Source of the DNA: Apostichopus japonicus
Lineage: Eukaryota; Echinodermata; Holothuroidea; Aspidochirotida; Stichopodidae
Assembly (NCBI RefSeq): GCF_037975245.1
Contig: NC_092561.1
Coordinates: 4,266,001-4,330,000, forward strand
Length of the DNA stretch: 64,000 nucleotides
Direction: 5' to 3'
In this document: positions 26,233 to 62,997 of the stretch, piece after piece
Layout: each line of letters starts with the position of its first letter
Position numbering within the stretch: position 1 is the first letter of the stretch
Notes under the pieces: model-generated
Seen by the model: the letters and a program-made list of their open reading frames with translations, nothing else
Databases searched by the model: none
What the model was told of the DNA's origin: nothing
Program-made: the position numbers and the translations under genes

Positions 26233-26233
26233 T

Positions 26234-34363: not shown

Positions 34364-34484
34364 GTAGCAAGAGAGCTAAGACAATGTCGTTTAAGACTGT
34401 CCTACCTACAAGAAAATGGAACCTCTTCGGTAATAAACTGTTAGAACTGTTGATAACCACAAATCATGATATATATTCCAGCTA

Positions 34485-34890: not shown

Positions 34891-35340
34891 AAACTACGAA
34901 TGCAAAGAGACCTTGGGTAGAACGATTAAACGATCACAAATTTTGGGCAAGTTTTCTACGTTTCGACAATTGAATCGGTTAAAATGTTGTATATTCCTCT
35001 TCATTTGGGAAACATATATTGATTGGATGCATAGTCCGACCAGTTCGTTATTGGTTAAGATGTTTACCATTTGGTGCCCTATATGCTACAACCTACATGC
35101 AGTCGGGATACTAGAACATAAGAAATAACACAACGTTAATGACAACGTCAGCTCTTACGCACTAGTCTCGTAATGTCCCATGAAGTTGCTAAAAAAATTC
35201 AGAATTAATGCAGATCCCTATTGACAAATGGTTGATAATTACGTCTATTAATTATTTCATAAAGTTATTGAATTTTTTTTTCACTGCATGTGTGGTAATT
35301 CTCTCAGATACTCTGTTTTGTTCTATTTATTCGAGCGTAG

Positions 35341-35443
35341 ATCTTTACTAACGGTTCCAGTAAAGTATCTGTTCAGACGGGTGCAAGATTGAATTTCACA
35401 TGCATCGATGGGTCAAAAGTCAGAATCAAATGCGGTGACAATG
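35341..35443 (+). CDS. Ig-domain cell-surface protein A, exon 2
   Basis: A 103-nt exon, acceptor TAG at 35338-35340 and donor GTATGC from 35444, encoding IFTNGSSKVSVQTGARLNFT then CIDGSKVRIKCGDN (residues 131-164). It is the N-terminal half of a second, smaller Ig-like domain with its B-strand cysteine in NFTC. Entry in phase 0 and exit in phase 1 match exons 1 and 3. Orthologous exons with the same borders occur in copies B and C. Confidence 0.72.
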
Positions 35444-35843
35444 GTATGCTAATGACTATAGTGAATTATCTCTTTTAACATTACATACTGTAATTAGTCT
35501 ATACTGTGGTTCTGTTATGCTAGTATATGTTGAGTAAGGTTTTTCAGTTTTTCAGTTTTTTTTTTGTGTTTTTAATTTTAATTTAATGATCTGAAGAGAC
35601 TTAGCAAGAGATATTAAAGCCAAATTATGCATTAACTATTTACACAACCAAACTGATGTCTATCTCGACAATCTTTTTGCCACTCGTTTATGTAGGCCTA
35701 CTCTCAAGAATTATACAATCTTCATAACAAATATCGTTATGATTTAAAGTTATTTACAGATAGGAGATATTCAAAATGAGAAGATAAAAATAGAAATGTT
35801 CTCATCGTATTTATTAATTTTTTCGACGATTCATTCATTTCAG

Positions 35844-36262
35844 AAGAATCAGATGTTCCGAATTATTTTCCCCTTTCTGTGTGTTCATTTTCAGCAATCG
35901 ACAAGACGGACAACATAATTGTGAATATTTCTCATAATAATTGTAGAATTAGATGTAAGAAGTCTTTCGATGGTGATGCTCAATGTAAGACTGACTTATA
36001 CCTTGAGGTAAAGAACCGAATCGCGACGACCCGCTTAGTAGCTGGATTTGAAACAACGACTGGTTCGTCTCTGATGGACAAACAGACAGTCAAATCAGCA
36101 AACGGACCTCTCATTATAATCTCTGTATTTCTTGCGATATTTGTTTTCACCACTATTGTACTAGGTAGGTACATTATTAAATCAAGGGGCGGTAGGCACG
36201 ACGATGTCGGAAATCTCCCACGGGCTTGTGAACCGCAGTATGCTGTGGTCATGATGCATTGA
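35844..36262 (+). CDS. Ig-domain cell-surface protein A, exon 3 (Ig 2 end, stalk, transmembrane helix, tail)
   Basis: Two acceptors 51 nt apart, both preceded by pyrimidines and both in phase 1, can open this exon: after 35843 and after 35894. The longer form adds 17 residues (EESDVPNYFPLSVCSFS). From 35895 the exon gives IDKTDNIIVNISHNNCRIRC, closing Ig domain two, then a ~35-residue Ser/Thr-rich stalk, a transmembrane helix GPLIIISVFLAIFVFTTIVL (residues 235-254) followed by basic RYIIKSRGGR, and a ~30-residue cytoplasmic tail ending CEPQYAVVMMH. The tail has one tyrosine in a YxxV context, resembling an SH2-binding or ITIM-like site, though Pro replaces the usual hydrophobic residue at -2. 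The stop TGA is at 36260-36262. This is the only copy in the window that retains the membrane anchor. Confidence 0.75.
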
Positions 36263-36861
36263 TGTGGTGTTTAATGTGTTTTTAATTTTAATTTTATCTC
36301 AAGTCAATACAAATTAACCTAGCACTGTAAAGACAATCTTTATACTCATGTATCCTGCATATATATAGGCCTTTTTTTTCGTATTTTCACTAAAACTTCA
36401 TGTCATACTTTTCATGGTTTGAAGTTAACATTTCAGAGTGGAAAACAGTCGTTTATTTGCAGCATTAATATTGGAAGAGTCTTAGTCAATTTTATTTTCA
36501 ACTAAGTTTTAATAGTTCACCGTATAGCCACTGTAATATATAATAATCGAGCGTATATCAGTTGTAATATAAAATAATCGAGCGTACAACAGCTGTAATA
36601 TATACAGATTTAACGTTATATCAGCTTACCGAAGTTGCAGTTAACACAAGAAATTGACTTATTAAAAATATCAACCACTTATTGCTATATAATTGGAAAC
36701 ATTATACACCCGTTACTACAAGAAGGACTGAACACGAAGGAAATGTACTTTCAACTTGAAAAATATTCATTTTCTTTTCATTGTCCTATAGTTAAGTCTA
36801 TACGGTTACTCATTACGTATCGATTTAACGACACGGTATATCAGGAAGAAAATATACGGAA

Positions 36862-36862
<1 letters not shown>
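36263..36862 (+). other. 3' flank of Ig gene A
   Basis: AT-rich sequence shared with the flanks of genes B (42406-43015) and C (57625-58235). An 86-codon frame here (MQLTQEIDLLKIS...) recurs in the other copies only because the whole unit is duplicated, and it runs into a TA repeat, so I do not call it. A possible AATAAA polyadenylation signal lies in the satellite monomer at about 36923. Confidence 0.4.
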
Positions 36863-36897
<35 letters not shown>

Positions 36898-37082
36898 GTA
36901 TATATATTATTTTAACACAAAAAATAAAAGCAAACTCCAATATTGGGTATACATAGCTGCATGTCTCTTATAACATTATTGACGCATTTCTGGATATGGT
37001 AAGAAAGTAAATAGTTTATCAAACGCTTTCTCTTTACCTTAAATTACTAAAACATTTCGATATATTCTGAAAACTACCTTTT
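36863..37082. repeat. Single satellite monomer behind gene A
   Basis: One monomer of the 232-bp family found amplified at 43-52 kb: a TA run, then ATTATTTTAACACAAAAAAT, CAAACTCCAATATTGGGTAT and ATTGACGCATTTCTGGATAT. It lacks about 32 bp (the ACTTTTATTTTGAAAACTGC part) present in the other monomers. It ends at the unit junction. Confidence 0.88.
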
Positions 37083-37469
37083 AGTTTATAAAATCTACCG
37101 TGATCTCGTGATCTCGATATTTGATATTTAAAAGTTTATTGAGGATCAGTTGCATGGTAAAGAGTATGAACATTTTTTGCTTCTATGAATAGACACTAAC
37201 TTCTGATCTGATTTCCATATATAATAATGATAGTATATTTAAATTTTGTTAATTTATTTTATATATTTATACAGGGTAACATATTCAACGTAGTTGTTAT
37301 AAACAGCGGTCCTGTGAAACAATAAAAATATGAAAAAAGCAACATATATAAAATAAAACAGGCAACAAAAATGCTAAAAAAACAAACAAAGAACGATAAA
37401 AGGTAAAATATAAACATTAAGATAGCATGTAAACTTTAAGATGACATTTAAAAGTATCAAAAGTATATG

Positions 37470-37890
37470 CATTCCTCAGGTAGACTGTTCCAAACGGTTG
37501 GACCCATAAACGAGGAGGAGTTTTTAAAACATTCTAACCTATCATCAGGCACGTGAAGATCATTTACATTAAAAGAATGCGTGAGTCCATAATCCTGAAC
37601 ATCAACCTGCATAGTATCATGATTAGAAGTTTAATCTGGCGCCACACCATGGATGGCTTTAAACATTGAAATAGGCATAAAATAATACCTTCTTTGTTTC
37701 ACCTTCATCCATGGAAGTTCCATTACTAGATTAATGCCTCTAAAATAAGTAAAATTTAGTAACAATCCTTGCAGCCCTATTCTTTTTAATGAAATCGTGC
37801 ATTATTGTGCAGTGTGACAGCTCTGTAAGTTCGGGATAAGCTAACTATAGCCAGTAATTATTTTCATATATTTGTCAAGACTAGGAATAA
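37470..37890 (-). pseudogene. LINE reverse-transcriptase tail fragment, unit B
   Basis: Read on the - strand, the segment gives the C-terminal region typical of non-LTR retrotransposon ORF2 (pattern K-N-RAARIVT, LPWM-VKQRR-YF, MFKAIHGVAPD, then FMGPTVWNSL). It is truncated and interrupted. The LINE family is not determined. Related copies sit at the same relative place in units C and D, with a remnant in A. Confidence 0.65.
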
Positions 37891-40122
37891 AAAGTTGATA
37901 ACTGACAACCGAACGATTGCGCGCAAATTGCGCACATTTATTTTACAAAGAGTTGCCGTGTCCGAAGTGGCACATCATGGCAAGAAAAGAAAGAAACATT
38001 ACTGAGCGCGAAACGTGCAAATAATTGCGTTGGCATATGTTTGGGTTTTAAACGGCATCTTTGGGCACATACAACGACGAATAATAATAAATGGTGAAAT
38101 ATACACGCGGATATTGCTCGCGAAGCGTTCGTCCCATATTTTGTTTCATACAGAACATTCCGAACACTAAATAACATAGTGAAAAGATAGGAAGGAACAA
38201 TCACTGAGTGGGGGGTCTGGGGTTCCATAGATATAAAACAAAAACAAACTTTTTAAGATGCAACTTCTGCCGGCATCTGGCAGTCAAGAATAGTACACAG
38301 GCAACATGTTTTCACGTTGTACCGTGTGTTGTAAAGCATCTTTCTGTAACCCTTATTCTTAAAAACAAAATAGGGTAAAATTGGGGAGAATCGGGAACGA
38401 TTTGACCCCACCCATCAAGAAAAAAGAACAAGAACAACAAGTTAACAACAAATATTGCTTTCAATTGAACCTGTATCAGTCATACATTGGTTGCATATTT
38501 CATTTCGTTAAAGCATTGAGTTGGCCTTTTAAGTTCGCTTAAAGTTATGGTACTTTATAATTTAAACAAAAGAAGAAAGAAATAATATTAAAATAGTGAA
38601 CACCATTATTACAAAAGTCGTTACAACAGTGGTGGACTATAACAGTACCGTATTAAACAATGACTGACAACATGCACTCACTTTGTTATTGCAGTGTACA
38701 ACCTCCCCCCCCCCCCCCAATATAAACTGAGGCGAGGTAATTCTAACGGTTCTTGTGTGTGTGAAACATGTAGATTACATTCTAGCCGCCTTATTTGATT
38801 GCTTACGTTGTTCTGGTGCTTTTCGATCGAATATTATGTTGGGTTTGTGAAATGGACTTTTAAGTTTTTACATAACGCCCTCTATTTTTATTTTTATCGT
38901 TAGAGCAGTTCACACTTGGTGTTTCTTTCGATGATTAATATCTTACTGGTGCTTTTCTATTTCTTGTAAAGCATCGACTTTCTTTGTGAGTGATTACTTT
39001 GCTTTAACCATGAGCCGAGTTACTTCATATCTTCATTTGTTACTTACCACAATGCTAAATATAATATCATTATGAGAACCTTGACTTTGAGTTTGAAATC
39101 ATTATCCCGCTTGATTTAGTTTGTCAAGTTAGCAATACATTTGATATTCGATCACATCAACGACTTTTCGTTTTGTATCAGTTATTTGTGACTTTTGTTG
39201 AAACCCCGGGTCTATAATGACTTTATTTATATCAAAGCTTCATCAATTAAAGTAGCTATGGACTACCTAGTCAAGCCTCTCCACTGCTGTTGGTACTGTG
39301 CAATATTCCAAATTTGACAAGCAAAACGTAATATTGCTGAACTTGGGTACCATATGATGGATTAAGGAGAGGATTGGGAGAAGGGATACTCGGCGCACGG
39401 ATTAAATTAGGGGGACTGAGGAATAGGGATAAAGAATACGGTTTTCTCAGTTTCAGAAAATATTTATGGAAAAAATCAAGACTTCCAAAAAGTGTGTGTG
39501 TGTTTGGGGGTGGGGGGGGGGCGGGGTGATAACAAAATTGTTCCTGTGGACCTGTCTGACTTCGGGAAATTCGTATCTCTGAAATGTTTTAGAAAAACAT
39601 CTCTTTTTATCATATTCCTCAAAGAACATTGTAAGATTGTAATTTGTTAATAACACAGAAAATTGGATATCGGTCTATAAGTATATCATTACCCCGAATT
39701 TCATAACGGCATAGCAAACCTTTACCGTTAAACTATATTCATCTAGTTTACTCTAGGATATATAAATGGGGAAGTTACATATAACCCATGTAATAAACGG
39801 ACATGTATTGTAGAAACTGATGTGATACAGGGCTATTAAACATCGATTATTAACATTGATACAATAGATTAGGACTACAAGAGTCATTCAGTGAAACCAA
39901 AAACAATAACTGTATCAAGGGTAAGACCTAAATTTCTATTCGAAATTAAATTCAACGATTAAGTACGATAATTGTGAACGTGTGGTTTCGTTTTTGTTTC
40001 CTACAAGGAAGTTATTCATGTTCAGTAGAATGCTGAGTGCATTCAATTTTGATAATAATCAGTAACAGAGGCAAGTCCATGTTTGGATGTTATTTCTGAC
40101 TGCTCCCAAACAGCGACAGAAA
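37891..40122 (+). other. 5' flank of Ig gene B
   Basis: Non-coding sequence duplicated in unit C and partly in D. It contains a C homopolymer (38704-38717) and a TGTG/G-rich tract (39491-39520). A 96-codon - strand frame at 37938-38228 is unsupported. The leader region before exon 1 has a frame-breaking difference from copies A and D (CAGTAACAG for CAGTTAAAG). Confidence 0.4.
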
Positions 40123-40512
40123 ATGCGAGGATGCCATCTTTCATTTCTTCTGGTACTACGATTGATCACTGGTGTTGGGTGCAACAATGAGTTCTGTATG
40201 GGCTTGCCCTATGGTTTCCAAAGTAAACTTATCACCATTGGAAGTAACACAGAAATACACTGTGATATCCGTGATTCCTGTACACGCGGAGTATGGCTGA
40301 TAACTCTGGAATCAAATGGAACATCTTACGAACTGTCTTCGGGAAACTGCAGTGCTTGTGGTGACTATTTCACAGTTTTCAATAACAAAACGTCGAATTC
40401 CCTAATCATCGAAAACTTCAATTCAGAATTAAGTGGCATGTACAAGTGTGTAAGCGATTCGTGCTCTAATGGAGTGAAGGCGTCCCCGACGAGGTGTTTC
40501 AATGTTACGGGG
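40123..40512 (+). CDS. Ig-domain protein B, exon 1 (signal peptide and Ig domain 1)
   Basis: Paralogue of gene A exon 1 with the same 130-residue layout, cysteines and donor (GTAGCA at 40513). Differences from A in the Ig domain include MGLPYG for MDLPYG, TRGVWLI for TSGVWRI, SGMYKC for SGMYTC and NGVKAS for NGDKAS. The changes cluster on the predicted strand and loop surface while the framework residues are kept. With exons 2 and 3 it forms a 235-residue product lacking a membrane anchor. Confidence 0.74.
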
Positions 40513-40615
40513 GTAGCAAGAGAGCTAAGACAATGTCGTTTAAGACTGTCCTACCTACAAGAAAATGGAACCTCTTCGGTAATAAACTGTTAGAACTGTT
40601 GATAACCACAAATTA

Positions 40616-40616
<1 letters not shown>

Positions 40617-40668
<52 letters not shown>
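40617..40668. repeat. (TA)n microsatellite at the start of intron 1, gene B
   Basis: About 25 TA dinucleotides directly before the intronic minisatellite. At the same place copies A and C have only a few. Confidence 0.9.
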
Positions 40669-40670
<2 letters not shown>

Positions 40671-40672
40671 CT

Positions 40673-41026
40673 AGCATATAGTTGGGCAACTACTTCGTTT
40701 TCCTCACTATGATATGTATCACTGTAGTATAGTTGGGCAACTCCTCCGTTTTCCTCAGTATATGATATGTATTACTGTAGTATAGTTGGGTAACTCCTCC
40801 GTTTTCCTCAGTATATGATGTGTATCACTGTAGTATAGTTGGGCAACTCATTCGTTTTCCTCAGTATATGATATGTATCACTGTAGTATAGTTGGGTAAC
40901 TCCTCCGTTTTCCTCAGTATATGATGTGTATCACTGTAGTATAGTTGGGTAACTCCTCCGTTCTCCTCAGTATATGATATATATATCATTGTAGTATAGT
41001 TGGGCAACTCATTCGTTTTCCTCAGG
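40673..41026. repeat. ~53-bp intronic minisatellite, copy B
   Basis: About six to seven units of the same TTTTCCTCAG-bearing repeat as in gene A intron 1. Unit order differs from copy A. Confidence 0.9.
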
Positions 41027-41633
41027 GTAAACTACGAATGCAAAGAGACCTTGGGTAGAGCGATTAAACGATCACAAATTTTGGGCAAGTTTTCTACGTT
41101 TTGACAATTGAATTGGTTAAAATGTTGTATATTCCTCTTCATTGGGAAACATATATTGATTGGATGCATAGTCCGACCAGTTCGTTATTGGTTAAGATGT
41201 TTACCATTTGGTGCCCTATTTGCTACAACCTACATGCAGTCGGTGATACTAGAACGTAGAAAATAACTTAACGTTAATGACAACGTCAGCTCTTACGCAT
41301 CAGTCTCGCAGTAAGCGATGAAATGAGATAACAGCTTTATTAAAACGTTTGCCGATAAAAAAATAAAAAAATAATAAAAAACACTCTTACATTTGATTGT
41401 AATTGTGAACATTACAAAGGTGATTTGGCCATCTAGTCTGCGCGGGATTCACAAGCTCAAAATGAAAAGTTATGACTACATAGTCTACAAACATAATAAT
41501 TTAATGGTTTACCGTTTCAGCTACTTGAAGATGTCCCATGAAGTTGCTGAAAAATTCAGCATTAATGCAGATCCCTATTGACAAATGGTAATTCTCTCAG
41601 ATACTCTGTTTTGTTCTATTTATTCGAGTGTAG

Positions 41634-41736
41634 ATCTTTACCAACGGTTCCAGTAAAGTATCTGTTCAGACTGGTGCAAGATTGAATTTCACATGCATGG
41701 ATGGGTCAAAAGTCAGAATCAAATGCGGTGACAATG
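41634..41736 (+). CDS. Ig-domain protein B, exon 2
   Basis: A 103-nt exon with TAG acceptor and GTATGC donor, identical in phase to gene A exon 2. Encodes IFTNGSSKVSVQTGARLNFT and CMDGSKVRIKCGDN; Met replaces the Ile of copy A. Confidence 0.72.
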
Positions 41737-42139
41737 GTATGCTAATGTCATAGTGAATTATCTCTTTTTAAATTACATACTGTAATTAGTCTATACTGTG
41801 GTTCTGTTATGCAAGTATATGTTGAGTAAGGTTTTTCAGTTTTTCAGTTTTTTTTGTGTGTTTTTAATTTTAATTTTAATGATCTGAAGAGACTTAGCAA
41901 GAGATATTACAGCCAAGTTATGCATTCAATTATTTACACAACCAAACTGATGTCTATATGTCGACAATCTTTTTGCCACTAGTTTATGTAGGCCTACTCT
42001 AAAGAATGATACAATCTTCATAACAAATATCGTTATGATTTAAAGTTATTTACAGATAGGAGACATTCAATATGAGAAGATAAAAATAGAAATGTTCTCA
42101 TCGTAAATATTAATTTGTTCGACGATTCATTCATTTCAG

Positions 42140-42405
42140 AAGAATTAGATGTTCCGAATTATTTTCCCCTTTCTGTGTGTTCATTTTCAGCAATCGACAA
42201 GACGGACATCATAATTGTGGACATTTCTCATAATAATTGTAGAATTAGATGTAAGAAGTCTTTCGATGGTGATGCTCAATGTAAGACTGACTTATACCTT
42301 GTACTAGGTAGGTACATTATTAAATCAAGGGGCGGTAGGCACGACGATGTCGGAAATCTTCCACGGACTTGTGAACCGCAGTATGCTGTGGTCATGATGC
42401 ATTGA
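42140..42405 (+). CDS. Ig-domain protein B, exon 3, transmembrane segment deleted
   Basis: The same alternative acceptors as in A (after 42139 and after 42190, 51 nt apart). Compared with copy A, 153 bp (51 codons) are missing: after CKTDLYL the frame jumps directly to VLGRYIIKSRGGRHDDVGNL and the conserved CEPQYAVVMMH end. The deletion removes the whole stalk and essentially all of the transmembrane helix but keeps the frame. The break lies at a TTG present on both sides in copy A. The predicted product is a secreted 235-residue protein (252 with the longer acceptor) that still carries the former cytoplasmic tail. Confidence 0.74.
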
Positions 42406-43015
42406 TATGGTGTTAAATGTGTTTTTAATTTTATATCAAGTCAATACAAATTAACCAAGCACTGTAAAGACAATCTTTATACTCATGTATCCTGCATATA
42501 TATAGGCCTATATATTTTTCGTTTTTTTTTACTAAAACTTCATGTCATACTTTTCATGGTTTGAAGTTAACATTTCAGAGTGGAAAACAGTTGTTTATTT
42601 GCAGCATTAATATTGGAGGAGTCTCAGCCAATTTTATTTTCAACGAAGTTTTAATAGTTCACCGTATAGCCACTGTAATATATAATAGTCAAGCGTATAT
42701 ACGTTGTAACATAAAATAATCGAGCGTACAGCAGCGGTAATGTAGGCCTAAACAGATTAAACGTTATATCAGCTTACCGAAGTTGCAGTTAACACAAAAA
42801 TTTGACTTAATAAAAATATCAACCACATATTGCTATATAATTGGAAACATTATACACCCGTTACAAGAAGGAATGAACACGAAGGAAAAGTACTCTCAAC
42901 TTGAACAATATTTATGTTCTTTTCATTGTCCTATAGTTCAGTCTATACGGATATTCATTTCGTATCGATTTAACGACACGGTATATCAGGAAGAAAATAT
43001 ACGTTAGTCGTTACG
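42406..43015 (+). other. 3' flank of Ig gene B
   Basis: Same non-coding flank as behind genes A and C, leading into the TA run of the first satellite monomer. Confidence 0.45.
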
Positions 43016-43057
<42 letters not shown>

Positions 43058-43964
43058 TTAACACAAAAAATAAAAGCAAACTCCAATATTGGGTATACAT
43101 AGCTACTTTTATTTTGAAAACTGCGGAACTGACGCTGCATGCCTCTTATAACATTATTGACGCATTTCTGGATAAGGTATGAAAGTAAATAGTTTAACAA
43201 ACGCTTCCTCTTTACCTTAAATTACTAAAACATTTCGATATATTCTGACAAACTATCTCTTAGTTTATAAAATATATATATATATTATTTTAACACAAAA
43301 AATAAAAGCGAACTCCAATGTTGGGTATACATAGCTACTTTTATTTTGAAAACTGCGGAACTGACGCTGCATGCCTCTTATAACATTATTGACGCATTTC
43401 TGGATAAGGTATGAAAGTAAATAGTTTAACAAACGCTTCCTCTTTACCTTAAATTACTAAAACATTTCGATATATTCTGACAAACTATCTCTTAGTTTAT
43501 AAAATATATATATATATTATTTTAACACAAAAAATAAAAGCGAACTCCAATGTTGGGTATACGTAGCTACTTTTATTTTGAAAACTGCGGAACTGACGCT
43601 GCATGCCTCTTATAACATTATTGACGCATTTCTGGATAAGGTATGAAAGTAAATAGTTTAACAAACGCTTCCTCTTTACCTTAAATTACTAAAACATTTC
43701 GATATATTCTTACAAACTATCTCTTAGTTTATAAAATATATATATATATTATTTTAACACAAAAAATAAAAGCGAACTCCAATGTTGGGTATACGTAGCT
43801 ACTTTTATTTTGAAAACTGCGGAACTGACGCTGCATGCCTCTTATAACATTATTGACGCATTTCTGGATAAGGTATGAAAGTAAATAGTTTAACAAACGC
43901 TTCCTCTTTACCTTAAATTACTAAAACATTTCGATATATTCTGACAAACTATCTCTTAGTTTAT

Positions 43965-44003
<39 letters not shown>

Positions 44004-44446
44004 TTAACACAAAAAATAAAAGCGAACTCCAATGTTGGGTATACGTAGCTACTTTTATTTTGAAAACTGCGAAACTGACGCTGCATGCCTCTTATAACAT
44101 TATTGACGCATTTCTGGATAAGGTATGAAAGTAAATAGTTTAACAAACGCTTCCTCTTTACCTTAAATTACTAAAACATTTCGATATATTCTGACAAACT
44201 ATCTCTTAGTTTATAAAATATATATATATATTATTTTAACACAAAAAATAAAAGCGAACTCCAATGTTGGGTATACGTAGCTACTTTTATTTTGAAAACT
44301 GCGAAACTGACGCTGCATGCCTCTTATAACATTATTGACGCATTTCTGGATAAGGTATGAAAGTAAATAGTTTAACAAACGCTTCCTCTTTACCTTAAAT
44401 TACTAAAACATTTCGATATATTCTGACAAACTATCTCTTAGTTTAT

Positions 44447-44501
<55 letters not shown>

Positions 44502-44950
44502 TTAACACAAAAAATAAAAGCGAACTCCAATGTTGGGTATACGTAGCTACTTTTATTTTGAAAACTGCGAAACTGACGCTGCATGCCTCTTATAACATTA
44601 TTGACGCATTTCTGGATAAGGTATGAAAGTAAATAGTTTAACAAACGCTTCCTCTTTACCTTAAATTACTAAAACATTTCGATATATTCTGACAAACTAT
44701 CTCTTAGTTTATAAAATATATATATATATATATAGTATTTTAACACAAAAAATAAAAGCGAACTCCAATGTTGGGTATACGTAGCTACTTTTATTTTGAA
44801 AACTGCGAAACTGACGCTGCATGCCTCTTATAACATTATTGACGCATTTCTGGATAAGGTATGAAAGTAAATAGTTTAACAAACGCTTCCTCTTTACCTT
44901 AAATTACTAAAACATTTCGATATATTCTGACAAACTATCTCTTAGTTTAT

Positions 44951-45001
<51 letters not shown>

Positions 45002-45684
45002 TTAACACAAAAAATAAAAGCAAACTCCAATGTTGGGTATACATAGCTACTTTTATTTTGAAAACTGCGGAACTGACGCTGCATGCCTCTTATAACATTA
45101 TTGACGCATTTCTGGATAAGGTATGAAAGTAAATAGTTTAACAAACGCTTCCTCTTTACCTTAAATTACTAAAACATTTCGATATATTCTGACAAACTAT
45201 CTCTTAGTTTATAAAATATATATATGTATATATATATTATTTTAACAGAAAAAATAAAAGCGAACTCCAATGTTGGGTATACGTAGCTACTTTTATTTTG
45301 AAAACTGCGAAACTGACGCTGCATGCCTCTTATAACATTATTGACGCATTTCTGGATAAGGTATGAAAGTAAATAGTTTAACAAACGCTTCCTCTTTACC
45401 TTAAATTACTAAAACATTTCGATATATTCTGACAAACTATCTCTTAGTTTATAAAATATATATATATATTATTTTAACACAAAAAATAAAAGCGAACTCC
45501 AATGTTGGGTATACGTAGCTACTTTTATTTTGAAAACTGCGGAACTGACGCTGCATGCCTCTTATAACATTATTGACGCATTTCTGGATAAGGTATGAAA
45601 GTAAATAGTTTAACAAACGCTTCCTCTTTACCTTAAATTACTAAAACATTTCGATATATTCTGACAAACTATCTCTTAGTTTAT

Positions 45685-45747
<63 letters not shown>

Positions 45748-46196
45748 TTAACACAAAAAATAAAAGCGAACTCCAATGTTGGATATACGTAGCTACTTTT
45801 ATTTTGAAAACTGCGAAACTGACGCTGCATGCCTCTTATAACATTATTGACGCATTTCTGGATAAGGTATGAAAGTAAATAGTTTAACAAACGCTTCCTC
45901 TTTACCTTAAATTACTAAAACATTTCGATATATTCTGACAAACTATCTCTTAGTTTATAAAATATATATATATATATATAGTATTTTAACACAAAAAATA
46001 AAAGCGAACTCCAATGTTGGGTATACGTAGCTACTTTTATTTTGAAAACTGCGAAACTGACGCTGCATGCCTCTTATAACATTATTGACGCATTTCTGGA
46101 TAAGGTATGAAAGTAAATAGTTTAACAAACGCTTCCTCTTTACCTTAAATTACTAAAACATTTCGATATATTCTGACAAACTATCTCTTAGTTTAT

Positions 46197-46249
<53 letters not shown>

Positions 46250-47308
46250 AACACAAAAAATAAAAGCAAACTCCAATGTTGGGTATACATAGCTACTTTT
46301 ATTTTGAAAACTGCGGAACTGACGCTGCATGCCTCTTATAACATTATTGACGCATTTCTGGATAAGGTATGAAAGTAAATAGTTTAACAAACGCTTCCTC
46401 TTTACCTTAAATTACTAAAACATTTCGATATATTCTGACAAACTATCTCTTAGTTTATAAAATATATATATGTATATATATATTATTTTAACACAAAAAA
46501 TAAAAGCGAACTCCAATGTTGGGTATACGTAGCTACTTTTATTTTGAAAACTGCGAAACTGACGCTGCATGCCTCTTATAACATTATTGACGCATTTCTG
46601 GATAAGGTATGAAAGTAAATAGTTTAACAAACGCTTCCTCTTTACTTATAATATTATTGACGCATTTCTGGATAAGGTATGAAAGTAAATAGTTTAACAA
46701 ACGCTTCCTCTTTACCTTAAATTACTAAAACATTTCGATATATTCTGACAAACTATCTCTTAGTTTATAATATATATATATATATATATATTATTTTAAC
46801 ACAAAAAATAAAAGCGAACTCCAATGTTGGGTATACGTAGCTACTTTTATTTTGAAAACTGCGAAACTGACGCTGCATGCCTCTTATAACATTATTGACG
46901 CATTTCTGGATAAGGTATGAAAGTAAATAGTTTAACAAACGCTTCCTCTTTACTTATAATATTATTGACGCATTTCTGGATAAGGTATGAAAGTAAATAG
47001 TTTAACAAACGCTTCCTCTTTACCTTAAATTACTAAAACATTTCGATATATTCTTACAAACTATCTCTTAGTTTATAAAATATATATATATATTATTTTA
47101 ACACAAAAAATAAAAGCGAACTCCAATGTTGGGTATACGTAGCTACTTTTATTTTGAAAACTGCGGAACTGACGCTGCATGCCTCTTATAACATTATTGA
47201 CGCATTTCTGGATAAGGTATGAAAGTAAATAGTTTAACAAACGCTTCCTCTTTACCTTAAATTACTAAAACATTTCGATATATTCTGACAAACTATCTCT
47301 TAGTTTAT

Positions 47309-47349
<41 letters not shown>

Positions 47350-47792
47350 TTAACACAAAAAATAAAAGCGAACTCCAATGTTGGGTATACGTAGCTACTT
47401 TTATTTTGAAAACTGCGAAACTGACGCTGCATGCCTCTTATAACATTATTGACGCATTTCTGGATAAGGTATGAAAGTAAATAGTTTAACAAACGCTTCC
47501 TCTTTACCTTAAATTACTAAAACATTTCGATATATTCTGACAAACTATCTCTTAGTTTATAAAATATATATATATATTATTTTAACACAAAAAATAAAAG
47601 CGAACTCCAATGTTGGGTATACGTAGCTACTTTTATTTTGAAAACTGCGAAACTGACGCTGCATGCCTCTTATAACATTATTGACGCATTTCTGGATAAG
47701 GTATGAAAGTAAATAGTTTAACAAACGCTTCCTCTTTACCTTAAATTACTAAAACATTTCGATATATTCTGACAAACTATCTCTTAGTTTAT

Positions 47793-47835
<43 letters not shown>

Positions 47836-48284
47836 TTAACACAAAAAATAAAAGCGAACTCCAATGTTGGGTATACGTAGCTACTTTTATTTTGAAAACT
47901 GCGAAACTGACGCTGCATGCCTCTTATAACATTATTGACGCATTTCTGGATAAGGTATGAAAGTAAATAGTTTAACAAACGCTTCCTCTTTACCTTAAAT
48001 TACTAAAACATTTCGATATATTCTGACAAACTATCTCTTAGTTTATAAAATATATATATATATATATAGTATTTTAACACAAAAAATAAAAGCGAACTCC
48101 AATGTTGGGTATACGTAGCTACTTTTATTTTGAAAACTGCGAAACTGACGCTGCATGCCTCTTATAACATTATTGACGCATTTCTGGATAAGGTATGAAA
48201 GTAAATAGTTTAACAAACGCTTCCTCTTTACCTTAAATTACTAAAACATTTCGATATATTCTGACAAACTATCTCTTAGTTTAT

Positions 48285-48339
<55 letters not shown>

Positions 48340-49022
48340 TTAACACAAAAAATAAAAGCAAACTCCAATGTTGGGTATACATAGCTACTTTTATTTTGAA
48401 AACTGCGGAACTGACGCTGCATGCCTCTTATAACATTATTGACGCATTTCTGGATAAGGTATGAAAGTAAATAGTTTAACAAACGCTTCCTCTTTACCTT
48501 AAATTACTAAAACATTTCGATATATTCTGACAAACTATCTCTTAGTTTATAAAATATATATATGTATATATATATTATTTTAACAGAAAAAATAAAAGCG
48601 AACTCCAATGTTGGGTATACGTAGCTACTTTTATTTTGAAAACTGCGAAACTGACGCTGCATGCCTCTTATAACATTATTGACGCATTTCTGGATAAGGT
48701 ATGAAAGTAAATAGTTTAACAAACGCTTCCTCTTTACCTTAAATTACTAAAACATTTCGATATATTCTTACAAACTATCTCTTAGTTTATAAAATATATA
48801 TATATATTATTTTAACACAAAAAATAAAAGCGAACTCCAATGTTGGGTATACGTAGCTACTTTTATTTTGAAAACTGCGGAACTGACGCTGCATGCCTCT
48901 TATAACATTATTGACGCATTTCTGGATAAGGTATGAAAGTAAATAGTTTAACAAACGCTTCCTCTTTACCTTAAATTACTAAAACATTTCGATATATTCT
49001 GACAAACTATCTCTTAGTTTAT

Positions 49023-49057
<35 letters not shown>

Positions 49058-49500
49058 TTAACACAAAAAATAAAAGCGAACTCCAATGTTGGGTATACGT
49101 AGCTACTTTTATTTTGAAAACTGCGAAACTGACGCTGCATGCCTCTTATAACATTATTGACGCATTTCTGGATAAGGTATGAAAGTAAATAGTTTAACAA
49201 ACGCTTCCTCTTTACCTTAAATTACTAAAACATTTCGATATATTCTGACAAACTATCTCTTAGTTTATAAAATATATATATATATTATTTTAACACAAAA
49301 AATAAAAGCGAACTCCAATGTTGGGTATACGTAGCTACTTTTATTTTGAAAACTGCGAAACTGACGCTGCATGCCTCTTATAACATTATTGACGCATTTC
49401 TGGATAAGGTATGAAAGTAAATAGTTTAACAAACGCTTCCTCTTTACCTTAAATTACTAAAACATTTCGATATATTCTGACAAACTATCTCTTAGTTTAT

Positions 49501-49579
<79 letters not shown>

Positions 49580-50028
49580 TTAACACAAAAAATAAAAGCG
49601 AACTCCAATGTTGGGTATACGTAGCTACTTTTATTTTGAAAACTGCGAAACTGACGCTGCATGCCTCTTATAACATTATTGACGCATTTCTGGATAAGGT
49701 ATGAAAGTAAATAGTTTAACAAACGCTTCCTCTTTACCTTAAATTACTAAAACATTTCGATATATTCTGACAAACTATCTCTTAGTTTATAAAATATATA
49801 TATATATATATAGTATTTTAACACAAAAAATAAAAGCGAACTCCAATGTTGGGTATACGTAGCTACTTTTATTTTGAAAACTGCGAAACTGACGCTGCAT
49901 GCCTCTTATAACATTATTGACGCATTTCTGGATAAGGTATGAAAGTAAATAGTTTAACAAACGCTTCCTCTTTACCTTAAATTACTAAAACATTTCGATA
50001 TATTCTGACAAACTATCTCTTAGTTTAT

Positions 50029-50073
<45 letters not shown>

Positions 50074-50590
50074 TTAACACAAAAAATAAAAGCAAACTCC
50101 AATGTTGGGTATACATAGCTACTTTTATTTTGAAAACTGCGGAACTGACGCTGCATGCCTCTTATAACATTATTGACGCATTTCTGGATAAGGTATGAAA
50201 GTAAATAGTTTAACAAACGCTTCCTCTTTACCTTAAATTACTAAAACATTTCGATATATTCTGACAAACTATCTCTTAGTTTATAAAATATATATATGTA
50301 TATATATATTATTTTAACACAAAAAATAAAAGCGAACTCCAATGTTGGGTATACGTAGCTACTTTTATTTTGAAAACTGCGAAACTGACGCTGCATGCCT
50401 CTTATAACATTATTGACGCATTTCTGGATAAGGTATGAAAGTAAATAGTTTAACAAACGCTTCCTCTTTACTTATAATATTATTGACGCATTTCTGGATA
50501 AGGTATGAAAGTAAATAGTTTAACAAACGCTTCCTCTTTACCTTAAATTACTAAAACATTTCGATATATTCTGACAAACTATCTCTTAGT

Positions 50591-50621
<31 letters not shown>

Positions 50622-51144
50622 TATTTTAACACAAAAAATAAAAGCGAACTCCAATGTTGGGTATACGTAGCTACTTTTATTTTGAAAACTGCGAAACTGA
50701 CGCTGCATGCCTCTTATAACATTATTGACGCATTTCTGGATAAGGTATGAAAGTAAATAGTTTAACAAACGCTTCCTCTTTACTTATAATATTATTGACG
50801 CATTTCTGGATAAGGTATGAAAGTAAATAGTTTAACAAACGCTTCCTCTTTACCTTAAATTACTAAAACATTTCGATATATTCTTACAAACTATCTCTTA
50901 GTTTATAACATATATATATATATATATATATATTATTTTAACACAAAAAATAAAAGCAAACTCCAATGTTGGGTATACATAGCTACTTTTATTTTGAAAA
51001 CTGCGGAATTGACGCTGCATGCCTCTTATAACATTATTGACGCATTTCTGGATAAGGTATGAAAGTAAATAGTTTAACAAACGCTTCCTCTTTACCTTAA
51101 ATTACTAAAACATTTCGATATATTCTGACAAACTATCTCTTAGT

Positions 51145-51201
<57 letters not shown>

Positions 51202-51884
51202 TTAACACAAAAAATAAAAGCAAACTCCAATGTTGGGTATACATAGCTACTTTTATTTTGAAAACTGCGGAACTGACGCTGCATGCCTCTTATAACATTA
51301 TTGACGCATTTCTGGATAAGGTATGAAAGTAAATAGTTTAACAAACGCTTCCTCTTTACCTTAAATTACTAAAACATTTCGATATATTCTGACAAACTAT
51401 CTCTTAGTTTATAAAATATATATATATATATTATTTTAACACAAAAAATAAAAGCGAACTCCAATGTTGGGTATACGTAGCTACTTTTATTTTGAAAACT
51501 GCGAAACTGACGCTGCATGCCTCTTATAACATTATTGACGCATTTCTGGATAAGGTATGAAAGTAAATAGTTTAACAAACGCTTCCTCTTTACCTTAAAT
51601 TACTAAAACATTTCGATATATTCTGACAAACTATCTCTTAGTTTATAAAATATATATATATATATATAGTATTTTAACACAAAAAATAAAAGCGAACTCC
51701 AATGTTGGGTATACGTAGCTACTTTTATTTTGAAAACTGCGAAACTGACGCTGCATGCCTCTTATAACATTATTGACGCATTTCTGGATAAGGTATGAAA
51801 GTAAATAGTTTAACAAACGCTTCCTCTTTACCTTAAATTACTAAAACATTTCGATATATTCTGACAAACTATCTCTTAGTTTAT

Positions 51885-51951
<67 letters not shown>

Positions 51952-52165
51952 TTAACACAAAAAATAAAAGCAAACTCCAATATTGGGTATACATAGCTAC
52001 TTTTATTTTGAAAACTGCGGAACTGACGCTGCATGCCTCTTATAACATTATTGACGCATTTCTGGATAAGGTATGAAAGTAAATAGTTTAACAAACGCTT
52101 CCTCTTTACCTTAAATTACTAAAACATTTCGATATATTCTGACGAACTATCTTTTAGTTTATAAA
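43016..52165. repeat. 9.1-kb satellite array, about 36 monomers of ~232 bp plus TA runs
   Basis: Each monomer has a variable TA run, ATTATTTTAACACAAAAAAT, a CAAACTCC/CGAACTCC block, GGGTATACATAGCTAC, TTGACGCATTTCTGGATAAG, TTAACAAACGCTTCCTCTTT and ATTTCGATATATTCTGACAA. TA runs range from about 9 to over 70 bp. Partial ~77-bp duplications occur at about 46645, 46949, 50470 and 50780. Diagnostic variants (TATAGTATTTT, TATATGTATATA, AACAGAAAA) recur in the same order, showing higher-order blocks. The first and last monomers carry ATATTGGGTATACAT like the single monomer behind gene A, while central ones carry ATGTTGGGTATACGT. The recurrent 60-79 codon - strand frames are repeat translations. Confidence 0.95.
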
Positions 52166-52529
52166 ATCTACCGTGATCTTGTGATATCGATATTTGATAT
52201 TTGAATGTTTATTGAGGAAAAGTTTGCTTATTAAAGAGTATGAACATTTTTTGTTTCTATGAATAGATATAAACTTCTGATCTGAATTCCATGTTTAATA
52301 ATGATAGTTTATTTGTTTATTTATTTAATATATTTATACAGGGTAACATATCCAACATTGTTTTTATAAACAGTGGTCCTGTGAAACAATTAAAATATGC
52401 ACACAAAAAAACAGATATTAAATAAAACAGGCACCAAAAATGCTAAAAAAAAATAACTAAAGAACGATAAAGGTAACATTAAGATATCATGTAAACTTTA
52501 AGATGGCATTTAAAAGTATTAAAATAAAT

Positions 52530-52965
52530 GCATTCCTTAATCAGATAGACTGTTCCAAACGGTTGGACCCATAAATGAGGAGGAGTTTTTAAAACATTCT
52601 AACCTATCATCAGGCACGTGAAGATCATTTACATTAAAAGAACGCGTGAGTCCATAATCCTGAACATCAACCTGCATAGTAACATCATTAGAAGTTTAAT
52701 CTGGCGCCACACCATGTATGGCTTTAAACATTAAAATAGATATAAAATAATTCCTTCTTTGTTTCACATTCATCCATGGAAGTTCCATTACTAGAATAAT
52801 GCCTCTAAAATAAGTAAAATCATTATTTTTAGTAACAATCCTTGCAGCCCTATTCTTTTTAATGAAATCGTGCATTATTATGCAGTGTGACAACTCTGTA
52901 ATTTCGGGATAGGCTAACTATAGCCAGTAATTATTTTCATATATTTGTCAAAACTAGGTATAAAA
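52530..52965 (-). pseudogene. LINE reverse-transcriptase tail fragment, unit C
   Basis: On the - strand it gives IKKNRAARIVTKNN, MELPWMNVKQRRNYF and MFKAIHGVAPD followed by a TAA, after which the same frame continues to GPTVWNSL. This is the end of a non-LTR retrotransposon ORF2, truncated at both ends. The TAA is shared with the copies in B and D, so the fragment was already dead when the unit was duplicated. Confidence 0.7.
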
Positions 52966-55214
52966 AGTTGATAACTGACAACCGAACGATTGCGCGCAAA
53001 TTGCGCACATTTATTTTACAAAGAGTTGCCGTGTCCGAAGTGGCACATCATGGCAAGAAAAGAAAGAAACATTACTGAGCTCGAAACGTGCGAATAATTG
53101 CGTTGGCATATGTTTGGGTTTTAAACGGCATCTTTGGGCACATACAACGACGAATAATAATAGAGGGTGAAATATACACGCGGATATTTCTCGCGAAGCG
53201 TTCGTCCGATATTTTGTTTCATACAGAACATTCCGAACACTAAATTACATAGTGAAAAGATAGGAAGGAACAATCACTGAGTGGGGGGGGGGGGGCGGGT
53301 CTGGGGATCCATAGATATAAAAAAAATCAAACATTTTAAGATGCAACTTCTGCCGGCATCTGGCAGTCAAGAATAGTACACAGGCAACATGTTTTCACGT
53401 TGCACCGTGTGTTGTAAAGCTTCTTTCTGTAACCCTTATTCTTAAAAACAGAATAGGGTAAGATTGGGGAGAATCGGGAACGATTTGACCCCACCCATCA
53501 GGAAAAAAAGAACAAGAACAACAAGTTAACAAGAAATATTGCTTTCAATTGAACCTGTATCAGTCATACATTGATTGCATATTTCATTTCGATAAAGCAT
53601 TGAGTTGGCCTTTTAAGTTCGCTTAAAGTTATGGTACTTTATAATTTAAACAAAAGAAGAAAGAAATAATATTAAAATAGTGAACACCATTACAAAAGTC
53701 GTTACAACAGTGGTGGACTATAACTGTACCGTATTAAACAATGACTGACAACATGCACTTACTTTGTTATTGCAGTGTACAACCTCCCCCCACCCCCCCC
53801 CCCCCCAATTTAAACTGAGGCAAGGTAATTCTAACGGTTCTTGTGTGTGAAACATGTAGATTACCTTCTAGCCGCCTTATTTGATTGCTTACGTTGTTCT
53901 GGTGCTTTTCGATCGAATATGTTGGTTTTGTGAAATGGACTTTTAAGTTTTTACATAACGCCCTCTATTTTTATTTTTTATCGTTAGAGCAGTTCACACT
54001 TGGCTTTTCTTTCGATGATTAATATCTTACTGGTGCTTTTCTATTTCTTGTAAAGCATCGACTTTCTTTGTGAGTGATTACTTTGCTTTAACCGTGAGCC
54101 GAGTTACTTCATATCTTCATTTGTTACTTACCACAATGCTAAATATAATATCATTATGAGAACCTTGATTTTGATTTTGGAATCATTATCCCGCTTGATT
54201 TAGTTTGTAAATTAAAAGTTAGCAATACATTTGATGTTCGATCATATCAATGACTTCGTTTTGTATCAGTTATTTGTGACTTTTGTTGAAAACCCGGATC
54301 TATAATGACTTTATTTACATCAAAGCTTCATCAGTAGCTATGGACTACCTAGTCAAGCCTCTCCACTGCTGTTGGCACTGTGCAATGTATATTCCAAATT
54401 TGACAAGCAAAACGTACTATTGCTGAACTTGGGTACCATATGATGGATTAAGGAGAGGATTGGGAGAAGGGATACTCGGCGCACGAATTAAATTAGGGGG
54501 ACTGAGGAATAGGGATAAAGAATACGGTTTTTCTCAGTTTCAGAAAAAAATTTTAAAAAAAAATGAAGGCTTCCAAAACATGTGTGTGTTTGTGTGTGTG
54601 GGGGTGGGGGGTGGATGATAACAAAACTGTTCCTGTGGATCATCTGCCTCAGGAAAATCGTCTCTCTGAAATGTATAAGAAAAACATTTTTTTTTCATAT
54701 TCCTCAAAGAACATTGTAAGATTGTAATTTGTTAATAACACAGAGAAATTTGATATCGGTCTATAAGTATATCATTACCCTGAATTTCATAACGGCATAG
54801 CAAACCTTTACCGTTATACTATATTCATCTAGTTTACTCTAGGATATATAAATGAGGAAGTTGCATAAAACCCATGTAATAAACGGACATGTATTGTAGA
54901 AACTGGTGTGATACAGGGCTATTAAACATCGATTATTAACATTGATACAAAAGATATTAATTAGGACTAAAAGAGTCATTCAGTGAAACCAAAAACAATA
55001 ACTGTATCAAGGGTAAGACCTAAATTTCTATTCGAAATTAAATTTAACGATTAAGTACGATAATTGTGAACGTGTGGTTTTGTTTTTGTTTCCTACAAGG
55101 AAGTTATTCATGTTCAGTAGAATGCTGAGTGCATTCAATTTTGATAATAATCAGTAACAGAGGCAGGTCCATGTTCGGATTTTAGTTCTGACTGCTCCCA
55201 AACAGCGACAGAAA
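52966..55214 (+). other. 5' flank of Ig gene C
   Basis: Non-coding, duplicated from unit B. Contains homopolymer runs (G near 53283-53294; C near 53787-53806) and a GTGTGT/G tract near 54580-54612. No gene recognised. Confidence 0.4.
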
Positions 55215-55604
55215 ATGCGAGGGTGCCATATTTCATTTCTTTTGGTACTACGATTGACCACTGGTGTTGTGTGCAACAATGAGTTCTGTATGGGCTTGCC
55301 TTATGGTTTCCAAAGTAAGCTTATCACCATTGGAAGTAACACAGAAATACACTGTGATATCCGTGATTCCTGTACACGCGGAGTATGGCTGATAACTCTG
55401 GAATCAAATGGAACATCTTACGAACTGTCTTCGGGAAACTGCATTGCTTGTGGTGACTATTTCACAGTTTTCAATAACAAAACGTCGAATTCCCTAATCA
55501 TCGAAAACTTCAATTCAGAATTAAGTGGCATGTACAAGTGTGTAAGCGATTCGTGCTCTAATGGAGTGAAGGCGTCCCCGACGAGGTGTTTCAATGTTAC
55601 GGGG
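55215..55604 (+). CDS. Ig-domain protein C, exon 1 (signal peptide and Ig domain 1)
   Basis: Third paralogue with the same 130-residue exon, starting at the MRGC methionine; here the frame is closed shortly upstream, which supports that start. Donor GTAGCA at 55605. It differs from B at a few residues (TTGVVC in the leader end, NCIACG for NCSACG, which removes the Asn75 sequon). The framework cysteines, GVWLI and SGMYKC are conserved. Confidence 0.74.
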
Positions 55605-55728
55605 GTAGCAAGAGAGCTAAGACAATGTCGTTTAAGACTGTCCTACCTACAAGAAAATGGAACCTCTTCGGTAATAAACTGTTAGAACTGTTGATAACCA
55701 CAAATTATGATATATATGTATTCAATCT

Positions 55729-56188
55729 AGCATACAGTTGGGCAACTCCTTCGCTTTCCTCAGGATATGACATATATTACTGTAGTATAGTTGGGTAACT
55801 CCTCCGTTTTCCTCAGGATATGATGTGTATCACTATAGTATAGTTGCGCAACTCATTCGTTTTCCTCAGTATATGATATGTATCACTGTAGTATAGTTGG
55901 GCAACTCCTCCGTTTTCCTCAGTATATGATATGTATCACTGTAGTATAGTTGGGTAACTCCTCCGTTTTCCTCAGGATATGATATGTATCACTGTAGTAT
56001 AGTTGGGTAACTCCTCCGTTTTCCTCTGTATATGATATGTATCACTGTAGTATAGTTGGGTAACTCCTCCGTTTTCCTCAGGATATGATAAGTATCACTG
56101 TAGTATAGTTGGGCAACTCATTCGTTTCCCTCAGTATATGATATGTATCACTGTAGTATAGTTGGGCAGCTCATTCGTTTTCCTCAGA
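55729..56188. repeat. ~53-bp intronic minisatellite, copy C
   Basis: About nine units, the largest of the four arrays, each with the TTTTCCTCAG look-alike acceptor. Confidence 0.9.
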
Positions 56189-56853
56189 GTAAACTACAAA
56201 TACAAAGAGACCTTGGGTAGAACGATTAAACGATCACAATATTTGGCTAAGTTTTCTACGTTTTGAAAATGGAATTGGTTAAAATGTTGTATATTCCTCT
56301 TCATTGGGAAACATATATATTGATGGATGCATAGTCCGACCAGTACGCTATTGGTTAAGATGTTTACCATTTGGTGCCCAATTTGCTACAACCTACATGG
56401 AGTCGGTGATACTAGAACGTAGGATATAACACAACGTTAATGACAACGTCAGCTCTTACGCACTAGTCTCGCAGTAAGCGATGAAATGAGATAACAGCTT
56501 TATTAAAACGTTTGCCAATAAAAAAAAAAAACACTCTTAAGAACGAAGATTTGATTTTAATTGTGAACATTACAAAGGTGATTTTGCTATCTAGTCTGCG
56601 CGGGATTCACAAGCTCAAAATGAAAAGTTATGACTGTACAGTCTACAAACATAATAATTTAATGGTTTACAGTTTCTGCTACTTGACGACGTCCCGTAAA
56701 GTTGTTGAAAATTTAGTATTAATGCAGATCCCTTTTGACAAATGGTTGATAATTTCGTTCATTAATTATTTTATGAAGTTATTGAATATTTCTTCACTGC
56801 ATGTGTGGTAATTCTCTCAGATACTCTGTTTTGTTCTATTTATTCGAGTGTAG

Positions 56854-56956
56854 ATCTTTACCAACGGTTCCAGTAAAGTATCTGTTCAGACGGGTGCAAG
56901 ATTGAATTTCACATGCATGGATGGGTCAAAAGTCAGAATCAAATGCGGTGACAATG
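56854..56956 (+). CDS. Ig-domain protein C, exon 2
   Basis: A 103-nt exon with TAG acceptor and GTATGC donor. Encodes the same IFTNGSSKVSVQTGARLNFT and CMDGSKVRIKCGDN segment as gene B, in phase with exons 1 and 3. Confidence 0.72.
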
Positions 56957-57358
56957 GTATGCTAATGACTATAGTGAATTATCTCTTTTTAAATTACATA
57001 CTGTAATTAGTCTATACTGTGGTTCTGTTATGCAAGTATATGTTGAGTAAGGTTTTTCAGTTTTTCAGTTTTTTTTGTGTTTTTAATTTTAATTTTAATG
57101 ATCTGAAGAGACTTAGCAAGAGATATTACAGCCAAGTTATGCATTCAATTATTTACACAACCAAACTGATGTCTATATGTCGACAATCTTTTTGCCACTA
57201 GTTTATGTAGGCCTACTCTAAAGAATTATACAATCTTCATAACAAATATCGTTATGATTTAAAGTTATTTACAGATAGGAGACATTCAATATGAGAAGAT
57301 AAAAATAGAAATGTTCTTATCGTAAATATTAATTTGTTCGACGATTCATTCATTTCAG

Positions 57359-57624
57359 AAGAATCAGATGTTCCGAATTATTTTCCCCTTTCTGTGTGTT
57401 CATTTTCAGCAATCGACAAGACGGACAACATAATTGTGGACATTTCTCATAATAATTGTAGAATTAGATGTAAGAAGTCTTTCGATGGTGATGCTCAATG
57501 TAAGACTGACTTATACCTTGTACTAGGTAGGTACATTATTAAATCAAGGGGCGGTAGGCCCGACGATGTCGGAAATCTTCCACGGACTTGTGAACCGCAG
57601 TATGCTGTGGTCATGATGCATTGA
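57359..57624 (+). CDS. Ig-domain protein C, exon 3, transmembrane segment deleted
   Basis: Carries exactly the same 153-bp in-frame deletion as copy B (CKTDLYL joined to VLGRYIIKSRGG) and the same pair of acceptors (after 57358 and after 57409). The tail reads RPDDVGNLPRTCEPQYAVVM then MH. The predicted product is a 235-residue secreted protein. Sharing of the deletion shows that it arose before B and C separated. Confidence 0.74.
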
Positions 57625-58234
57625 TATGGTGTTTAATGTGTTTTTAATTTTATATCAAGTCAATACAAATTAACCAAGCACTGTAAAGACAATCTTTATA
57701 CTCATGTATCCTGCATATATATAGGCCTATATATTTTTCGTTTTTTTTTACTAAAACTTCATGTCATACTTTTCATGGTTTGAAGTTAACATTTCAGAGT
57801 GGAAAACAGTTGTTTATTTGCAGCATTAATATTGGAGGAGTCTCAGCCAATTTTATTTTCAACGAAGTTTTAATAGTTCACCGTATAGCCACTGTAATAT
57901 ATAATAGTCAAGCGTATATACGTTGTAACATAAAATAATCGAGCGTACAGCAGCGGTAATGTAGGCCTAAACAGATTAAACGTTATATCAGCTTACCGAA
58001 GTTGCAGTTAACACAAAAATTTGACTTAATAAAAATATCAACCACATATTGCTATATAATTGGAAACATTATACACCCGTTACAAGAAGGAATGAACACG
58101 AAGGAAATGTACTCTCAACTTGAACAATATTTATGTTCTTTTCATTGTCCTATAGTTCAGTCTATACGGATATTCATTTCGTATCGATTTAACGACACGG
58201 TATATCAGGAAGAAAATATACGTTAGTCGTTACG

Positions 58235-58831: not shown

Positions 58832-58872
<41 letters not shown>

Positions 58873-62872: not shown

Positions 62873-62997
62873 GTAGCAAGAGAGCTAAGACAATGTCGTT
62901 TAAGACTGTCCTACCTACAAGAAAATGGAACCTCTTCGGTAATAAACTGTTAGAACTGTTGGTAACCACAAATTATGATATATATATATATTCAATC

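Follow-up and report, generated by a model that had tools for sequence, protein, structure and literature searches.

The window analysed here, a 64,000-nucleotide (nt) stretch of the Apostichopus japonicus genome, carries an array of four related units that start at about 32.5, 38.6, 53.7 and 60.9 kilobases (kb) and harbour the genes referred to as A, B, C and D, whose products are predicted to be immunoglobulin (Ig) receptors and two of which, B and C, share a 153-nt deletion in their last exon. Genes A, B and C each consist of three joinable exons on the plus strand, and an ATG-to-TGA frame was open in all nine models (three genes with three splice choices apiece). In gene A, exon 1 (33974–34429) is an open frame with a signal-peptide-like start and a likely Ig domain that gave a marginal Pfam match, and has two candidate donors (34363/34364 or 34429/34430). 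Exon 2 (35341–35443) was modelled as the beginning of what may be a second Ig-like domain and differs at no more than 3 of its 103 positions in any pairwise comparison among A, B and C, while exon 3 (35844–36262, or starting at 35895 when an alternative acceptor is used) encodes the remainder of the second domain, a stalk, a helix and a cytoplasmic tail. The corresponding gene models place the exons of B at 40123–40578, 41634–41736 and 42140–42405 (or from 42191; deletion junction at about 42301/42302), and those of C at 55215–55670, 56854–56956 and 57359–57624 (or from 57410), the third exon of both lacking the stalk and helix. For gene D, exon 1 lies at 62483–62938, and the unit matches the others only up to 63294, with exon 3 outside the view. 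A tblastn search of the window with the three exons as queries returned four loci for exon 1 and three loci each for exons 2 and 3, further matches (E of 0.11 or worse) being set aside as weak. Apart from 153 nt of exon 3, the exons and splice-site positions of A were matched in B and C. The earlier note on this DNA, which described these splice sites as intact, thus holds for the consensus GT and AG positions, but not as a statement on transcripts.

Across 840 aligned coding bases, taken from exons 2 and 3 and from exon 1 as extended to its stop codon, just one insertion or deletion (indel) separates A from B, and the same one separates A from C, namely a gap corresponding to positions 36005–36157 of gene A on the plus strand. 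This agrees with the earlier claim that B and C lack exactly 51 codons. The TTG said to be present at both edges was likewise recovered from the junction sequences, which read ...CTTGAGG ... ATTGTACTAGG... in A and ...CTTGTACTAGG... in B and C, and this 3-nt microhomology means that the deletion can be placed (by hand) no more finely than from 36003–36155 to 36006–36158. Microhomology of at least 3 nt was reached by 12 of the 215 possible 153-nt deletions in the stretch considered, indicating a mild departure from chance. The 153 nt of A encode EVKNRIATTRLVAGFETTTGSSLMDKQTVKSANGPLIIISVFLAIFVFTTI, corresponding to the stalk and most of the helix. As had been proposed, the gene models and junctions place the stalk and almost the whole of the sole strong helix within the lost segment, with the frame, stop codon and tail being kept in B and C. 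After dinucleotide shuffling of the 153 nt (n = 20,000), 1445 shuffles were open and only two were both open and contained a 19-mer with a hydropathy of at least 1.9, suggesting that the segment is a real anchor-coding stretch. The sequence following the helix in A, RYIIKSRGGR, is what we take to be a classical stop-transfer pattern, and such a pattern makes sense only in combination with a helix, which argues for a deletion in B and C rather than an insertion in A.

The best 19-residue hydropathy past residue 40 reached 2.85 in A but did not exceed 1.29 in B and 0.87 in C, so that a helix is found in the A models and no strong one in the B and C models, the ectodomain being common to all three. 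If expressed, A would thus be a type I membrane protein, and the products of B and C would probably be soluble or secreted. Both forms are likely Ig receptors as judged from their sequences, the assignment being least secure for the second domain. The best PDB match of A was IL-18 receptor 1 (E of 9.3e-4, residues 85–163), a weak match that points to resemblance at the domain level only. The tail of A (...EPQYAVVMMH), read by eye against the consensus [SIVL]xYxx[ILV], contained no immunoreceptor tyrosine-based inhibitory or activation motif (ITIM or ITAM), its only fit being to a YxxPhi sorting motif.

The two deleted copies proved to be unusually similar to each other in their 3′ halves. Upstream of B 41577 / C 56734, 125 of 2527 sites distinguish the two copies, compared with 10 of 1431 between that position and the TA run that follows the genes, amounting to an approximately sevenfold contrast. 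A maximal chi-square test, which covered the sequence up to B 43010 / C 58230 except for the 53-nt repeats in intron 1, located the break at this position, and none of 2000 permutations reached its value. The resulting homogenised tract (B 41577–52600, C 56734 to about 59790) comprises exon 2, the deleted exon 3, the 3′ flank and a minisatellite; its right end is approximate, as taken from 150-column bins, with the minisatellite itself left unaligned. Past the minisatellite, B–C divergence was low again (1/150 to 3/140, with 2/93 in the first bin) and stayed so up to roughly B 52.6 kb / C 59.8 kb, after which no pair was clearly closest; from about B 53.2 kb A and B were closer, and the last bin showed 2/59 for every pair. 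Because the deletion lies inside this tract, B and C do not constitute independent witnesses, and the shared deletion is most simply explained as one event followed by recent copying. A single deletion keeps the frame with a 1-in-3 chance. The proposal that frame retention in two copies reflects a selected, fixed soluble partner is therefore not supported, given the near-identity of B and C over the tract. The minisatellite is built of units of about 232 nt with TA runs and extends for about 9 kb after B (43040–52167), is short after C (58406–59320) and has a single unit-like stretch as its counterpart after A (36889–37097).

Coding constraint was assessed from the substitutions and indels that separate the copies. 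Between A and B, the proportions of synonymous (pS) and non-synonymous (pN) differences were 0.071 and 0.022 in exon 1, and 0.056 and 0.016 in exons 2 and 3, yielding a pN/pS of about 0.3, and the pooled data gave about 10 synonymous changes over 163 sites versus about 10 non-synonymous changes over 542 sites (Fisher test, p = 0.012, with counts rounded from 10.5/10.5 to 10/10). Substitutions in exons 2 and 3 were also depleted with respect to intron 2 and the 3′ flank, both between A and B (8/318 versus 59/988, p = 0.013) and between A and C (7/318 versus 54/987, p = 0.014). Similarly, only one indel was found in the 840 coding bases between A and B (9.6 expected, versus 28 in 2445 noncoding bases) as well as between A and C (10.0 expected), and none between B and C (6.0 expected, versus 18 in 2504 noncoding bases). 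These patterns indicate that the genes are under coding constraint now or were so recently, with the caveat that the A–B path includes the branch of A itself and the time before the deletion.

Two motif-level features, both spotted post hoc, bear on how the transcripts of these genes might be processed. The 81 nt that follow the first candidate donor of gene A (34364–34444, plus strand), containing an AATAAA (34432–34437) and an in-frame TAG (34442–34444), are identical in all four copies (40513–40593 in B, 55605–55685 in C and 62873–62953 in D, with AATAAA at 40581, 55673 and 62941, respectively). The absence of variable sites from this stretch (0/81) compares with 22/390 in exon 1 (p = 0.020) and 177/1440 in the 5′ flank (p = 5e-5), and might mean either that exon 1 extends to the second donor (34429/34430) or that a soluble transcript with one Ig domain ends there. 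In addition, gene A contains a candidate exonic intron of 157 nt (36008–36164, plus strand), delimited by a donor-like AGGTAA (36006–36011) and an acceptor-like TTTTCACC...TACTAG. The former is the sole AGGTRA in 33901–36900 and lies at the left boundary of the deleted segment, and the latter, which is pyrimidine-rich, lies just beyond its right edge. Splicing out of this candidate intron would leave an open but frame-shifted soluble tail that ends in WS and a stop. Based on these motifs A may make soluble forms too, and the idea that the two forms arise from separate genes rather than by alternative splicing is accordingly left unsupported. Exact intron loss via complementary DNA was rejected, since the B/C junction retains TACTAG but not the AG of GAG.

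Overall, we consider it reasonably probable that the array derives from one membrane-protein gene, that a single deletion removed the anchor in the ancestor of B and C, and that this deletion was copied between B and C, leaving both with soluble products. The ancestral gene would have encoded a type I membrane protein with a signal peptide, an Ig domain, a small Ig-like domain spread over exons 2 and 3, a stalk, a helix and a short tail. In the ancestor of B and C, a single in-frame loss of 153 nt would then have occurred, for which end joining or slippage at the TTG microhomology is the probable mechanism, and the deleted 3′ half would have been transferred between B and C via gene conversion or unequal crossing over. 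The product of A would consequently reside at the cell surface. If the other two genes are transcribed, their products would be secreted, ending in a free C-terminus that used to be the cytoplasmic tail, and could serve as soluble ligand binders or decoys.

A number of results weigh against this reading. The Ig assignment of exon 1 of A (34028–34429) to PF00047 exceeded the Pfam cut-off by a margin of just 0.1 bit (21.9 versus 21.8), and the scores of B (18.3), C (18.5) and D (19.7) remained below it, although PF00047 was the top match in each case; the joined A and B proteins also stayed below the Pfam cut-offs (the scan covering A and B, not the joined C protein). The core of the signal-peptide-like start is broken by Arg13, its best 15-mer hydropathy ranging from 2.03 to 2.07 for A, B and C, compared with 1.68 for D, so that secretion hinges on a putative start. 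Coding changes between B and C amounted to 5 synonymous and 6 non-synonymous ones (p = 0.14), by which no constraint on the soluble form is shown, the homogenised tract being too young for this, and exons 2 and 3 contributed only three changes, two of which are non-synonymous. Finally, a transmembrane exon elsewhere in B or C was looked for by scanning the plus strand of their territory (gene regions and tails). All 12 transmembrane-like stretches lay outside the predicted exons, and one weak candidate exon emerged in the 3′ flank. Under a loose rule, an acceptor-like site upstream in the open frame accompanied three of the 12 stretches (42502, 57721 and 60850) and was lacking for the other nine, and the only pair among those three that B and C have in common is the one at 42502 and 57721, with a hydropathy of 1.92 over 19 residues. 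The corresponding candidate hydrophobic 3′ exon, defined at the motif level, would span 42441–42564 in B and 57660–57783 in C on the plus strand, in a frame that is open from 42406 and 57637, respectively, and ends with IGLYIFRFFLLKLHVILFMV, the exon starts at 42441 and 57660 being acceptor-like. A donor-like GT that follows 42311 in B would fit the phase of this candidate exon (by hand), the exon 2 donor would not, and the corresponding 3′ flank of A gave no hydrophobic-stretch match at threshold.

It is somewhat unlikely, yet deserves the most attention among the alternatives, that B and C arose by recent duplication and are turning into pseudogenes, with surface expression broken by the deletion and their frames open merely for want of time. 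Equalisation of the tract left little time for decay, one deletion would keep the frame in a third of cases, and a pseudogene would readily accommodate both the predominance of non-synonymous changes in exons 2 and 3 and the loss of the N175 glycosylation sequon in B by an N-to-D change that is also found in C. The splice consensus is retained in both genes, however, and exon 1 is not part of the homogenised tract, yet is less diverged between B and C than the 5′ flank (8/390 versus 71/1493 in raw counts, with 0 versus 15 indels), providing a mild argument against plain decay, although part of the divergence time may predate the deletion. We regard it as unlikely that every gene makes soluble and membrane forms by RNA processing, either by reading on from exon 1 or by splicing out 36008–36164 in A, and that the deletion in B and C merely fixed this outcome. 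The invariance of the 81-nt stretch with its AATAAA and in-frame stop speaks for such processing, as do the positions of the AGGTRA and TACTAG motifs at the edges of the deleted segment. Against this, the second donor explains the conservation of the 81 nt equally well, 157 nt is no multiple of three, the B/C junction differs from the splice junction in both of the respects noted above, and the hints themselves are post hoc motif matches. A combined scenario, in which a DNA deletion in the sister genes took the place of splicing of a short exonic intron in the membrane gene by removing almost the same segment, gene conversion then carried the soluble state across the array and copy number came to determine the membrane-to-decoy ratio, seems to us quite improbable.

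The same holds, at lower probability still, for the explanations that question the array or the direction of change. An assembly artefact, by which alleles or a mis-joined haplotype would have been set in tandem as B and C (or as their 3′ parts), appears very unlikely: marine invertebrates can be highly heterozygous, B and C show few differences over several kb and the intervening minisatellite is hard to assemble, but the units are arranged head to tail and their tail ends differ (117/926 between B and C). With exon 3 of D out of view and no outgroup within the window, the 153-nt segment could alternatively have been inserted in A, the soluble form being ancestral. We consider this highly improbable, as the tail past the junction looks membrane-proximal, for which a soluble ancestor would offer no evident reason, and as the TTG repeat fits a microhomology-driven deletion. 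Least probable of all, and in our view barely credible, is that B and C retain a membrane-bound or hydrophobic-tailed form by internal splicing of exon 3 to the new 3′ exon described above. Its open frame, hydropathy, acceptor-like site and phase-fitting GT, together with the lack of a match in A, would allow for it, but the helix is weak, with Arg, Lys and His inside, the splice sites are weak as well, acceptor-like sites accompany just a quarter of the stretches, and the phase of the exon 2 donor is unfit.

Some further features of the window accompany the array. Intron 1 of all copies contains a 53-nt tandem repeat (34488–34887, 40677–41025, 55736–56187 and 63003–63294), many units of which carry, by eye, an acceptor-like CCTCAG string. 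The similarity of gene D stops within this repeat, and the sequence from 63294 to 64000 had no other blastn match in the window; D may therefore be truncated or carry an insertion. The motif TAGGCCTA was over-represented, with 9 occurrences versus 0.65 expected from base composition, an abundance that would be in keeping with invertebrate deuterostomes. Upstream of A, three pieces within 30841–32589 are 86–89% like the unit tail (37779–38700), and represent a possible relic of another unit. More distant from the array, the minus strand harbours mitochondrial carrier exons (20073–26316), with Pfam Mito_carr being found in all four open reading frames tested; by eye these exons resemble an uncoupling protein, and the region around 20383–21072 seems to carry partial copies of a single exon.

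On paper, the array resembles several membrane and soluble receptor pairs that are already known. In Botryllus schlosseri, fuhc-sec (555 residues) and fuhc-tm (531 residues) are described as neighbouring genes for a secreted and a membrane form that were once thought to be splice forms of one gene (PMC3691228). As far as that description goes, the likeness to the array lies in secreted and membrane forms being encoded by neighbouring genes at an Ig-type recognition locus. The fuhc genes are presumably not near-identical duplicates differing by one deletion, unlike A versus B and C. Likewise, LAIR-2 is reported as a soluble homologue and natural antagonist or decoy of the membrane receptor LAIR-1 in humans and non-human primates, with 83% identical ectodomains and collagen as the ligand (PMC8225389). 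Whereas the LAIR pair, as portrayed there, combines diverged ectodomains with a known ligand, the pair in the window differs by one deletion in otherwise near-identical copies. LILRA3 is stated to be secreted solely in soluble form (PMC10679719), and the 22-bp deletion of KIR2DS4d is reported to yield a truncated protein that is unable to attach to the membrane and has been suggested to act as a decoy (PMC6385198). By these accounts, LILRA3 and KIR2DS4d are Ig-receptor family members without membrane attachment, as B and C are predicted to be, and KIR2DS4d owes this to a small deletion. KIR2DS4d is a variant with a truncated protein, however, whereas B and C are two paralogues that share an in-frame loss of 153 nt and retain the tail.

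Taken together, the sequence-level observation that B and C lack the stalk and helix of A is correct, and the argument for a selected decoy pair appears weakened by the homogenisation of B and C. The array might in turn serve as a warning that frame-keeping deletions common to tandem copies should not be counted as separate pieces of evidence for selection. At the same time, it could offer a clean natural case in which a surface receptor family gains a soluble member by one cut and passes it to its neighbour, and if B and C turn out to be secreted and conserved in related species, they would constitute an added invertebrate decoy pair for functional work.

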